NCBI RefSeq assembly: GCF_003173615.1
Contig: NZ_QGNA01000002.1
Coordinates: forward strand, 1-64,000
From: Falsiroseomonas bella
Lineage (GTDB): Bacteria; Pseudomonadota; Alphaproteobacteria; Acetobacterales; Acetobacteraceae
DNA length: 64,000 nucleotides
Direction: 5' to 3'
Shown here: in pieces, positions 35,269 through 58,383 of the stretch
Position numbering within the stretch: the first letter of the stretch is position 1
Layout of the letters: each line of letters begins with the position of its first letter
Translations under genes and position numbers: made by a program
Notes under the pieces: generated by a model
What the model was told of the DNA's origin: nothing
The model's input: only the letters and a program-made list of their open reading frames with translations
Database searches by the model: none

Positions 35269-35331
35269 GGCCCGCGCAGCGGGCCGAGGCGCCTACGGGC
35301 GCCCGCCGCAAGCCAAGGCCGCGGAGCGGCC
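35269..35331 (+). repeat. Structured intergenic element, copy A
   Basis: Three consecutive hairpins between the convergent SDR and prs genes: GGCCCGC/GCA/GCGGGCC (35269-35285); GGCGCC/TACG/GGCGCC (35288-35303) entered by GAGG; and GGCCGC/GGA/GCGGCC (35317-35331) entered by AGCCAA. Two other copies are at 44.3 and 58.3 kb. It may act as a bidirectional terminator or mRNA 3'-end structure. Confidence 0.65.
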
Positions 35332-35349
35332 GCCCGGCGCTGGAGGGCA

Positions 35350-36282
35350 TCAACTAAACAGATCGCTGACGCTGCTCTCTTCGCTGATCCGCTTCATCGC
35401 CTCTGCGATCAGTGGCGCGATGGTCAGCTGCTTGATGTTGCGGCTGACGCGCACCGCCTCGGTGGCCAGGATGCTGTCCGTCACCACCATGGTCTCGATC
35501 GGCGCGGCGCCGACGCGCGCCACCGCGCCGCCCGAGAAGACGCCATGCGTGACATAGACGCTGGCGCTCTTCGCACCCTGCTTCAGCAGCGCCTCCGCGG
35601 CGTTGCAGAGCGTGCCGCCGGAATCGACGATGTCGTCCACCAGGATGCAGTGCCGGCCCTCGACCTCGCCGATCACGTTCATCACCTCGGAGACGCCGGC
35701 GCGCGGGCGGCGCTTGTCGATGATGGCGAGGTCGGCGCCGATGCGTGCCGCGATCGCGCGCGCGCGCACCACGCCGCCGACATCGGGGCTGACCACGATG
35801 GTCTCGCGGCCGGCGAAGCGCTCCTGGATGTCGCGCGCGAAGAGTGGTGCCGCGAAGAGGTTGTCCACCGGGATGTCGAAGAAGCCCTGGATCTGCCCGG
35901 CATGCAGGTCCATCGTCAGCACGCGGTGCGCGCCCGCTTCCACGATCAGGTTCGCCACCAGCTTGGCGCTGATCGGCGTGCGGCTGCCGGACTTACGATC
36001 CTGCCGCGCATAGCCGAAATAGGGGATCACCGCCGTGATGCGCCGCGCGCTGGCGCGCCGCAGCGCGTCCAGCATGATCAGCAGCTCCATCAGGTTGTCG
36101 TTCGCCGGGTAGCTGGTGGACTGGACGACGAAGACGTCCTCGCCGCGGACGTTCTCGTGGATCTCGACGAAGATCTCCATGTCGGCGAAGCGCCGCACGG
36201 AGGCTTGCGTCAGCGGCATGCCGAGCGCCGCGGCCACCGCCTCGGCAAGAGGACGGTTGCTGTTGCAGGCGATGATCTTCAT
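35350..36282 (-). CDS. prs: Ribose-phosphate pyrophosphokinase
   Basis: Makes phosphoribosyl pyrophosphate from ribose-5-phosphate and ATP for purine, pyrimidine, NAD, His and Trp synthesis. 310 residues from [20 protein letters not shown]. Family motifs include [15 protein letters not shown] [27 protein letters not shown] (ATP site), [18 protein letters not shown] and the PRPP-binding [20 protein letters not shown] hairpin lies in its leader at 36313-36332. Confidence 0.97.
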
Positions 36283-36312
36283 GCAGCGAGGCCCCGGGGA
36301 GGTGTCGAGCCG

Positions 36313-36332
36313 CCGCACGGAGGGCCGTGCGG
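36313..36332 (-). other. Hairpin in the prs leader
   Basis: CCGCACGG and CCGTGCGG form a perfect 8-bp stem with a 4-nt loop, about 30 nt upstream of the prs start codon. It could be a leader attenuator or a terminator for the upstream lipoprotein gene, whose stop is at 36412. No U-run follows on the minus strand. Confidence 0.4.
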
Positions 36333-36411
36333 TCGCGCGATCCGATAGCAATGTGGCATCCGGGTGTCCATCGCGGCGGCGTGAGCCGGGCGCATGGCGG
36401 ACCCGACGATC

Positions 36412-37353
36412 TCAACGCGGCGGCGCTGGCGGGTTCGCCTGTGCCGGCGCCGCGGCCTGCTGCGCGGCCGGCCCCGTCCGGACGATCCCGCCGGCATTGG
36501 CGATCACGTCGCGCACCCCGCCCGAAGCCTCCTCCGCAACCACGAAGGCGACATCGGCCCAGAGCCCGTTCAGGCTCCCGGCCGGCACCTCGTTCAGTTG
36601 CAGCACGCGGCCGAGGTCGTAGCCGTCGCGGCGGGAGACGGTCCAGACGATCTCCACGCGCTGCAACCCGCGCTCCGGCGGCGTCACCGTCACCACGCCC
36701 TGCACGGCGAAGGCAGCGCCCTCGGCCGTGTCCTGCACCTGCATGCCGAGCATGGCGAGGCGCTCCGCCATGCGCGCCGTCAGGCTGCGGTTGCCGTCAC
36801 CCGGCGCGCCGCGCACCGGCTGCAGCAACACCACGGGCGGACCGGCGCCGACGGCCTGCTCGTCGCCGGTGCGGCGCAAGGAATCCGCCCGCCCGACCAT
36901 CGCGGCGATCGCCGGGGCGGCTTCGGTCGCGGCGCCGCGCAGCACATCCTCGCCGCCCTCGGCCCAATCGCGGAACGACACCGCGCGGCCGGCATGCTCG
37001 CCGAGCGCGCGCCCGTCGGCGTCGCGCAGCGCGTAGCGCGGCACGATGCGCTCGCCGTCGCGGGCGGCGGTGATGACGAGCTGCCAGTCCAGCGGCCAGG
37101 GCGTGCCCTCGATCGCGGGCACTTCCTGCGCAAGCAGCGCCTCGGCCAGCAGCCGCGAATAGGCCTCGGCGTCGGCATTGGTCAGCATCGCCCCCTCCGG
37201 CGCCGGCACCGCCAGGCGATAGGCCGGGGGCCGCGCAAGGCGCGCGCCGAGGGCGCCCGGCTGGCCGCGGAAGGGCTGCGGCAGGTCGCCGCAGCCGGCG
37301 AGCGCCGCCAGGCCGCCGAGCGCCGCGGCGAAGCGTCGCCTAGACCAGGACAC
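36412..37353 (-). CDS. Putative lipoprotein (GTG start)
   Basis: A 313-residue protein with signal MSWSRRRFAAALGGLAALAG and lipobox LAGC. The mature part starts with GDLPQPFRGQPGAL and includes the strand/helix mix AYRLAVPAPEGAML, PWPLDWQLVITAARDG and GPPVVLLQPVRGAPGDG, ending in a Pro/Ala-rich tail. No family is recognised with certainty. The GTG start overlaps the stop of an upstream 22-codon gene by 14 nt. It may be co-transcribed with pgeF upstream and prs downstream. Confidence 0.75.
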   Translation of the reverse strand: MSWSRRRFAAALGGLAALAGCGDLPQPFRGQPGALGARLARPPAYRLAVPAPEGAMLTNADAEAYSRLLAEALLAQEVPAIEGTPWPLDWQLVITAARDGERIVPRYALRDADGRALGEHAGRAVSFRDWAEGGEDVLRGAATEAAPAIAAMVGRADSLRRTGDEQAVGAGPPVVLLQPVRGAPGDGNRSLTARMAERLAMLGMQVQDTAEGAAFAVQGVVTVTPPERGLQRVEIVWTVSRRDGYDLGRVLQLNEVPAGSLNGLWADVAFVVAEEASGGVRDVIANAGGIVRTGPAAQQAAAPAQANPPAPPR

Positions 37354-57268: not shown

Positions 57269-57336
57269 CGTTCCGTCATATGGCCCGGCCGCCTGAGCCT
57301 GGCAGGCCACGGCCGGAAGGAAGACAGGAGAGCGCC

Positions 57337-57765
57337 ATGCGCGACCGGCCCCTCGCCGACATGCTGCTGCACCGGCGGGATCCCGTCACGCTCGGACCCG
57401 AGGCGACGGTCCAGGAGGCCTGCCGCGTCATGCGGGCCCACCGCATCGGCTGCGTGCTGGTGACCGACCCGGAAGGCCGGCTGCTCGGTATCTTCACCGG
57501 GCGCGACGCCATCTGCCGCATCGGCGCCGAATGCCTTCCTCCGGCGCGCACCAGGCTCGCTGACGCCATGACGCCGCGCCCCGTCACGCTGCAGCCCGGC
57601 GCCGGCGCGCTGGAGGCGCTGCGCCTGATGCAGGATGGCGGCTTCCGCCACCTGCCGGTGGCGGAGGATGGAAGGGTGGTCGGGGTGGTGTCCCGCGGGG
57701 ATTTCCGCGCCATGGACCACGCCCGGCTGAACGAGGAGAACGGCTTCTGGGAGATGCTGCGCTGA
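57337..57765 (+). CDS. CBS-pair domain protein
   Basis: 142 residues made of two CBS motifs: DPVTLGPEATVQEACRVMRA with HRIGCVLVTDPEGRLLGIFT, and PRPVTLQPGAGALEALRLMQ with GGFRHLPVAEDGRVVGVVS. The start follows a good GGAGAG ribosome site. CBS pairs bind adenine nucleotides and usually regulate partners; no partner is evident. Divergent from the dipeptidase gene. Confidence 0.9.
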   Translation: MRDRPLADMLLHRRDPVTLGPEATVQEACRVMRAHRIGCVLVTDPEGRLLGIFTGRDAICRIGAECLPPARTRLADAMTPRPVTLQPGAGALEALRLMQDGGFRHLPVAEDGRVVGVVSRGDFRAMDHARLNEENGFWEMLR

Positions 57766-57935
57766 GCGACCCGGCGGCTCGGGTGCTCCCGGACCGGTGA
57801 CACAGGTGACAGGCGGATTGAAGTTTTGTGAGGTTGAGACTTGCAGCGGACCTCGCGCGTCCCCATCCCAGTGAAACGGCGCGGCGGGCGCCGTCTCTGT
57901 GTCGTCAACCGATCTGCAACGGGAGTTGGCCTGGG

Positions 57936-58286
57936 ATGTCGCATGTCGTCGTGCAGCCTGCGGTGAGGGCCGAGTCCGGCCACGTCATGGCGGCGGTCGC
58001 CGAACTCGCCGAAGGCGGCCTGGCGGAACGTATGCGCCTCGACGCCGCGGCGCGCGTGCTGGTCACTGCCCGCCGCATGCTGCGGATCGCCCCGCACCAG
58101 GCCGCAGCCGGCCAGGCGGCCGAGGTGGTGCTGCGCGTCGCCCGCTTCTGGGATCCCGCCGCGACCACGGCGGCGGAGCATGTCGAGGCGCTCGCCCCGG
58201 CCGATCTCGATGCCTTCCTCGCGGCCGCCCCGCGCTGGGCGGCCTCGGTGCGCGACGCCGCCCGCCCGGAGCGCCGCGCGGCCTGA
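57936..58286 (+). CDS. Hypothetical helical protein, 116 residues
   Basis: Starts MSHVVVQPAVRAESGHVMAA after GGGAG. Alanine-rich helices (AARVLVTARRMLRIAPHQAA, EHVEALAPADLDAFLAAAPR) suggest an all-helical cytoplasmic protein. No family recognised. An in-frame start 36 codons upstream (57828) exists but is less likely. The 170 bp before it (57766-57935) shows no gene. Confidence 0.6.
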   Translation: MSHVVVQPAVRAESGHVMAAVAELAEGGLAERMRLDAAARVLVTARRMLRIAPHQAAAGQAAEVVLRVARFWDPAATTAAEHVEALAPADLDAFLAAAPRWAASVRDAARPERRAA

Positions 58287-58311
58287 GGCCCCGCGCCGTT
58301 GTCGTGACCTG

Positions 58312-58383
58312 CGCCCGCCAACGGCGGGCGAGGCCGCGGACGCGGTCCGGCGCCCATGCCGCGAAGCCAAGGGCCGGAGGGCC
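58312..58383 (+). repeat. Structured intergenic element, copy B
   Basis: CGCCCGCC/AAC/GGCGGGCG (58312-58330), GAGG leading into GGCCGCG/GA/CGCGG(T)CC (58332-58348, one bulged T), a linker, then AGCCAA (58365-58370) and GGCC/GGAG/GGCC (58372-58383). It lies between the convergent hypothetical gene and pdxJ. Confidence 0.6.

Follow-up and report, generated by a model that had tools for sequence, protein, structure and literature searches.

Covarying multi-hairpin elements in Falsiroseomonas bella belong to an apparently undescribed family of probably mobile small repeats in Alphaproteobacteria

Bacterial miniature inverted-repeat transposable elements (MITEs), such as Correia/nemis, RUP and ERIC, are short and gene-less, carry terminal inverted repeats, are flanked by a short target duplication and occur in many copies. 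Fungal mitochondria contain double-hairpin elements, i.e. mobile hairpin repeats whose stems show compensatory changes, and in E. coli the repetitive extragenic palindromes (REPs) between malE and malF stabilise the upstream mRNA. Here we describe a family of repeats represented by three multi-hairpin elements in a stretch of 64,000 nucleotides of the Falsiroseomonas bella genome (contig NZ_QGNA01000002.1, positions 1 to 64,000; "the window" hereafter). The ends of these repeats resemble those of a MITE, their placement resembles that of REPs and their core resembles a structured RNA. In our view they are probably copies of a MITE-like, non-autonomous mobile repeat whose placement is that of a REP, and they belong to a large family of mobile small repeats in Alphaproteobacteria that has apparently not been described before. 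With the bacterial MITEs they have in common that they are short, lack a gene, possess inverted ends with a short target duplication and are numerous; unlike MITEs, their body consists of covarying hairpins instead of conserved sequence, and no parent insertion sequence was found. The mobile hairpins and the compensatory stem changes recall the fungal double-hairpin elements, which however occur in other organisms, have two hairpins and are not known to have TNA ends. The position of the REPs between malE and malF resembles that of copies in shared operon-like gaps described below.

According to a published account (PMC3733652), REPs are dispersed palindromes of 20-40 bp with an unpaired tag, and most of them are found downstream of genes, in convergent as well as in co-directional gaps, a placement that they share with the present family. 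In the same source the termini of the GTAG class are said to supply often a stop codon, no dedicated transposase is given for the CGTC class, and CGTC repeats are listed as missing in Acetobacteraceae. The family described here differs from REPs as presented there in having four to five hairpins and a size of ~80-165 bp, and in its free stems, fixed loops, inverted ends and TNA target.

The general order within the element is hairpin A, a single A, hairpin B, hairpin C, the linker AGCCAAG, hairpin D and a tail, followed in many copies by a hairpin E. The loop of B is GAAN (it starts with GAA in 136 of 151 rows), that of C is NNRT in most copies and that of D is GGA or GGAN; the tail reads CGCC(C)GGCGNNTGAGGGC, in which the two bases following GGCG vary (TC, TT, AC, AT, CC). 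The GCC/GGC lower stem beneath hairpin D is mostly invariant, a few copies being compensated and a few uncompensated. Direct inspection located all three window elements at the positions and on the strands reported in an earlier note on this DNA. The hairpins described there are real but the element is longer, with hairpin A before the GAGG motif, hairpin C before AGCCAAG and the tail plus hairpin E at two of the three sites. The pattern AGCCAAGN{2,6}GGAGN{2,8}GCC matches the window at exactly these three sites, where shuffled sequences lead one to expect 0.04 matches, and the complete 5.94 Mb genome at 39 places (38 distinct), with none for the reversed pattern. As the single-sequence folding energy of the elements is ordinary for their base composition (z -0.63 to -1.87, both strands), the evidence for structure lies in covariation and not in folding energy.

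A covariance model (R1) was built from eight short-form copies, among which two of the window elements; it is tuned to the short form and may miss long forms. Within a held-out set of 65 distinct copies from other genomes, none of which had been used for R1, 98.3% of the stem cells are paired and 244 cells show a double change, as compared to 61.6 in shuffles (each value was reached in 0 of 500 shuffles). The alignment of 86 distinct copies that includes the eight of R1 yields 98.0% paired cells and 318 double-change cells versus 86 in shuffles. Copies in both alignments were retrieved by R1, which favours pairing, and the alignments overlap slightly (148 distinct copies together). The D hairpins were also chosen via linker and tail, i.e. 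by a pattern that has no pairing criterion, although many of the loci had come via R1 and segments were trimmed by 0-2 bases to the best pairing: they comprise 120 distinct sequences among 232 copies, and 907 of the 961 counted pairs are Watson-Crick. The stems change independently, with 103 A-B-C combinations in 121 distinct stem sets. Compensatory stem change, proposed earlier on the basis of three copies, is thus confirmed at a large scale. Swaps from G-C to C-G constitute 453 of the 554 double-change cells in the 148 distinct copies, and wobble pairs or A-C mismatches are rare (46 of 3197 cells). The excess of wobble pairs (28) over A-C mismatches (18) is not significant (p 0.18), and therefore the data single out neither a strand, nor RNA as opposed to DNA, as the object of selection.

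The own genome holds at least ~90 dispersed copies. Our table of 93 copies combines 78 R1 matches at E<=0.1 with 15 pattern matches that the R1 search missed; L029, which coincides with L028, and L012, which L011 neighbours at 59 bp, were removed (L and G denote our loci and genomes). It is incomplete, in that a search with the tail pattern adds at least one copy (C1:1257364), and some of the weakest R1 matches (e.g. L094, L097, L102) are probably due to chance. All 14 other genomes of the genus that were searched carry R1 matches, 22-104 each at E<=0.01, and outside the genus matches were found in 2 of 24 genomes. A search across the order gave matches at E<=1e-4 in 56 of 299 genomes, seven of which belong to the genus; since the filters were stricter, this is a lower bound. 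In the class, 18 of the 385 genomes, among them the own genome, contain the exact tail pattern, and the reversed control gave no hit. Named carriers among the matches listed include Acetobacteraceae, Azospirillum, Nitrospirillum, Telmatospirillum, Erythrobacter, Croceicoccus, Sphingomonas and others. The same hairpin order is present in most of the listed rows, which are part of 128, and a few lack the full order (e.g. L177, L178). A Rhodospirillales metagenome-assembled genome (MAG; G327, CAIXKV) has 375 tail matches, near-identical among those listed (reversed control 0), and 314 left ends of one type. The earlier note knew of no named family, and indeed Rfam gave no match in the window at gathering score and none at E<=1 across 12 loci. 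Neither a 201-base nor a 111-base query had a match in phages and plasmids, and no description of the family was found in the open-access literature searched. Among the loci L413-L442 of the MAG there is also a subfamily with AGCCCCAGTGTGTGGACTCTAGGGGGC (an extra hairpin) in place of AGCCAAG, and a few copies there retain both ends without the C-D part.

The distribution over orthologous positions points to mobility. The gaps that correspond to the three window sites were inspected in other genomes of the genus (13 genomes for prs, 13 for the kinase gene and 12 for pdxJ; up to 420 nt each by eye, then re-checked with R1), and 37 of the 38 are without a copy; the same holds for the nearest relative, in which Prs is 99% and the kinase 92% identical. 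The remaining gap is in G006. The copy there is divergent, scores 35.3 bits (E 1.1e-4) and follows pdxJ at a distance of ~30 nt; it lies on the pdxJ strand, the window copy being on the opposite strand, which suggests an independent insertion in the same gap. The empty gaps, together with the opposite orientation in the remaining one, speak against vertical inheritance at the window sites. Of the earlier idea of a conserved RNA, the conserved covarying multi-hairpin element is retained, but not the vertically inherited RNA gene, against which the insignificant strand asymmetry of wobble pairs also counts. Other good R1 matches in these loci lie in different gaps, namely upstream of the kinase gene (G011) and ~1.3 kb beyond pdxJ (G002), and the rest are at chance level. 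In another species (G008) the gaps beside prs and the kinase gene (L145, L169) contain a different palindromic repeat, of the type GCCGTTTCACCGTC...GGTGAAACGGCT; the observations at the prs and kinase gaps suggest that these are general landing places.

A comparison of 74 own with 166 other sites gave seven rows, corresponding to five distinct shared pairs. The own copy with the highest score (L040) lies beside a GTPase gene, in a gap that, judging by Pfam families, is presumably yidC-engB; a Niveispirillum MAG has an oppositely oriented copy in this gap. The gap between the genes for a solute-binding protein and a permease (on the same grounds presumably dppA-dppB) holds copies in the own genome and in Roseomonas sp. 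AR75, and the ntrX/aminotransferase gap is likewise occupied in the latter. The def-fmt gap is occupied also in AR75 and, in reversed orientation, in L273. Some copies sit between apparent operon neighbours.

The ends could be delineated in 21 complete copies of the MAG subfamily, where they read TNA|TACC...GGTA|TNA, with TNA at 40 of the 42 ends. The flanking trinucleotides are equal in 14 of the 21 copies, as compared to a mean of 7.4 in shuffles (p 0.0004), in a third version of the test that used a wider right-end pattern and did not demand AGCCAAG. Own-genome copies with hairpin E have, as judged by eye, weaker TA[CT]C/G[AG]TA ends, and most of a dozen own-genome duplications that were judged in the same manner agree. 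The features of a MITE that were observed are thus dispersed non-coding copies at mostly non-orthologous positions, terminal inverted repeats and, in one subfamily, a target-site duplication.

The placement of the copies relative to genes (called throughout by our own codon-score script, not a standard caller) is uneven. After two copies overlapping a called gene were dropped, 91 remained; 33 of these have convergent neighbours, 55 co-directional ones and three divergent ones. The 129 control gaps of at least 90 bp come from 464 kb of the same genome (20 coordinate-chosen stretches of 20 kb plus the window) and are not free of elements, as the three window gaps and others with copies belong to them; they comprise 13 convergent, 70 co-directional and 46 divergent ones. 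Convergent gaps are therefore enriched (odds ratio 5.1, Fisher p 3.6e-6) and divergent gaps depleted (p 1.7e-9). Location between convergent genes, as put forward in the earlier note, holds as a tendency but not as a rule, given the 55 copies between co-directional genes; of these, 21 are oriented like the genes and 34 the other way. All three window elements do lie in convergent gaps over 90 bp, of which the window has three and not four by our gene calls. The covariance-model search and the tabulation of flanking genes that the note had proposed thus yield covariation above shuffles and a non-random placement with respect to gene orientation. One of the rare divergent gaps (L063, G000:C7:374892-375087) holds a tandem pair of copies; in the first of them, one pair of hairpin D is broken.

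At a finer scale, the stops of left genes cluster 25-27 nt before hairpin A in the own genome (14 of 40, 11 of them at exactly 26), and a cluster of 14 was reached in 0 of 5000 uniform random sets, in which the maximum was 10. The stops of the facing (right) genes lie 28-32 nt after the tail in 14 of 51 cases (p 0.0024). This test used 78 copies (the 15 pattern-only copies were dropped), kept distances of -10 to 70 nt (40 of 48 left, 51 of 56 right) and took a null that is uniform over 0-60 nt. The TGA stop of the gene to the left of the second + strand window copy falls inside the range of 25-27 nt.

A mobile repeat would link these observations as follows. A transposase acting in trans would recognise the ends and cut with a 3-bp stagger at TNA. 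Since TNA includes TGA and TAA (TCA and TTA for a facing gene), insertion exactly at such a stop would leave both the reading frame and the stop intact, and copies would therefore survive at the 3' ends of genes. Less certain is why the core remains paired: it may be kept for mobilisation, through recognition as a folded single strand or a cruciform, or its stable hairpins at the 3' end may protect or segment the mRNA, as is thought for REPs between operon genes. The most inclusive form of the proposal is put forward tentatively, as a possibility that we hold to be less likely than its negation. In this form, a mobile element spread across the Alphaproteobacteria would have a four-hairpin core, of RNA or folded single-stranded DNA, that is selected for its structure and recognised in trans by a non-RAYT enzyme; its TNA target would re-create the stop, and its hairpins would tune the neighbouring mRNA.

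Several points weigh against a mobile, MITE-like repeat. No transposase was found in searches aimed at Y1_Tnp and DUF4096 rather than at other transposase families. The duplication test rests on one subfamily, with at least 20 of the 21 copies from one fragmented MAG; seven of the 21 pairs are unequal (three are reverse complements, four neither), and two narrower versions of the test did not reach significance (5 of 7 equal with three end types; 4 of 7, p 0.18). Three own-genome duplications judged by eye (L050, L062, L072) disagree, and the long core forms lack TACC ends. The stop-distance test counts copies as independent, though subfamilies share ancestry. Lastly, the five shared site pairs and the G006 copy imply that some copies are old or that some gaps are re-used. 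As to the enzyme, DUF4096 transposases are present in four of five genomes, at 18 loci; none of these loci has matching ends, and the MAG with 375 tails has no DUF4096 match. When 719 proteins encoded near copies were clustered, the 25 largest clusters included no evident transposase, as judged from first residues only.

How do other explanations compare? The earlier note had considered bidirectional transcription terminators between convergent genes, which would fit the enrichment in convergent gaps, the avoidance of divergent ones and the stable GC hairpins. Yet a strict scan of both strands, which overlooked the phasin terminator as well and is thus not exhaustive, gave neither a T-tract nor a terminator-like site at any of the three elements, the sequence after the tail is, by eye, A-rich in many copies, and the majority of copies lie between co-directional genes, some of them in operon-like gaps. 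Moreover, phasin already has a canonical intrinsic terminator of its own (44165-44201), a strong hairpin ending in TTTTT with the phasin stop codon in its loop (region 44183-44394), and since it stands between phasin and the element, the latter is not needed to end phasin transcription. We regard termination as quite improbable. Still less probable, to the point of being nearly dismissible, are classical REPs moved by RAYT (Y1 tyrosine) transposases. In the cited account (PMC3733652) such REPs are likewise placed between convergent and unidirectional genes and have termini that supply stop codons, but none of the 15 genomes of the genus that were searched has Y1_Tnp (the control matched in 5 of 14), there is no GTAG tag, CGTC is not fixed in the tail, and the elements exceed the 20-40 bp of REPs by far. 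On the features tested, membership of the REP/RAYT system fails.

Selection for an RNA on a given strand, be it a stabiliser of mRNA 3' ends or a trans-acting RNA, with mobility being secondary, is a stronger contender, though still a rather doubtful one. It would account for the very strong covariation, the conserved loops and linkers, the avoidance of 5' ends and the re-use of gaps across organisms, sometimes flipped (the L040 gap in the Niveispirillum MAG, def-fmt in L273, pdxJ in G006). It sits poorly with the wobble and A-C counts, which single out no strand, with the 21 to 34 division over co-directional gaps and with the empty orthologous sites. Somewhat less likely again is that the pairing is kept by mutation. 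Template switching between the arms of a palindrome perfects the palindrome, and the covariation would then be an artefact of hairpin DNA. The predominant G-C to C-G swaps, impossible via a wobble pair, the scarcity of wobble or A-C intermediates and the insignificant strand asymmetry all agree with this. Against it, loops and linkers keep their motifs across orders (among the rows listed) while the stems are free, and the G+C content of the stems stays very high; neither observation follows from template switching alone.

Covariation is usually read as a strong sign of a functional RNA, and here a very strong signal is found in dispersed mobile repeats. This implies either a mobile element with a mobilisation step that recognises structure or, as a caution, that the covariation of RNA can be imitated by mobile DNA of palindromic type. 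If the proposed target is correct, a TNA that matches stop codons would simply account for the build-up of repeats at the 3' ends of genes; and if the more inclusive proposal of a trans-mobilised four-hairpin element is also correct, settling at gene ends and within operons would be harmless to the genes there, with the hairpins tuning the mRNA.

Table 1. Coordinates of the window copies, their parts and associated features.
Feature	Position	Strand	Basis or remark
Copy 1	35268..35348	+	sequence; pattern match; R1 29.1 bits, E 0.058 (whole genome)
Copy 1, hairpin A	35268-35286	+
Copy 1, single A	35287	+
Copy 1, hairpin B	35288-35303	+
Copy 1, hairpin C	35304-35309	+	one arm
Copy 1, AAGCCAAG	35310-35317	+
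Copy 1, remainder	up to 35348	+	hairpin D (GGA loop) and tail; no hairpin E
Copy 2	58312..58399	+	sequence; R1 69.5 bits; among the 8 copies building R1
Copy 2, hairpin A	58312-58330	+
Copy 2, hairpin B	58332-58347	+
Copy 2, hairpin C	58348-58363	+
Copy 2, AGCCAAG	58365-58371	+
Copy 2, hairpin D	58372-58383	+
Copy 2, tail	58384-58399	+
Copy 2, hairpin E	58400..58421	+	CCTTTCC...GGAAAGG, then CTCCCTGATATG, the probable right end as judged by eye
Copy 3	44261..44348	-	sequence; R1 86.2 bits; among the 8 copies building R1
Copy 3, hairpin A	44330-44348	-
Copy 3, hairpin B	44313-44328	-
Copy 3, hairpin C	44297-44312	-
Copy 3, AGCCAAG	44289-44295	-
Copy 3, hairpin D	44278-44288	-
Copy 3, tail	44261-44277	-
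Copy 3, hairpin E	44243..44260	-	GACGTGCGTCAGCACGTC
Left-gene TGA stop by copy 2	58284..58286	+	gene 57936-58286; 25 nt before hairpin A
G006 copy beside pdxJ	L159 1353-1471		divergent family member; linker AGCCACG

Copy 1 is a weak and shortened match to the model, its hairpin C being reduced to a single arm (Table 1). A hairpin E of the type present in copy 2 recurs in other own-genome copies, e.g. L038, L039 and L056. At the phasin locus the 3' half of the terminator and the bases next to it stand in tandem, as a 35-bp unit GACGCCCCGCCCGGCCTTTTTGTGTGCGACGTGCT at 44181-44215 and 44216-44250. Several copies (L010, L013, L036, L073, L086, L104) have a second repeat, with a hairpin of the type GTCACGCCGAAGGCGTGCCTTCGGCACGACGCG, nested in or near hairpin C or D, and the repeats therefore look modular.

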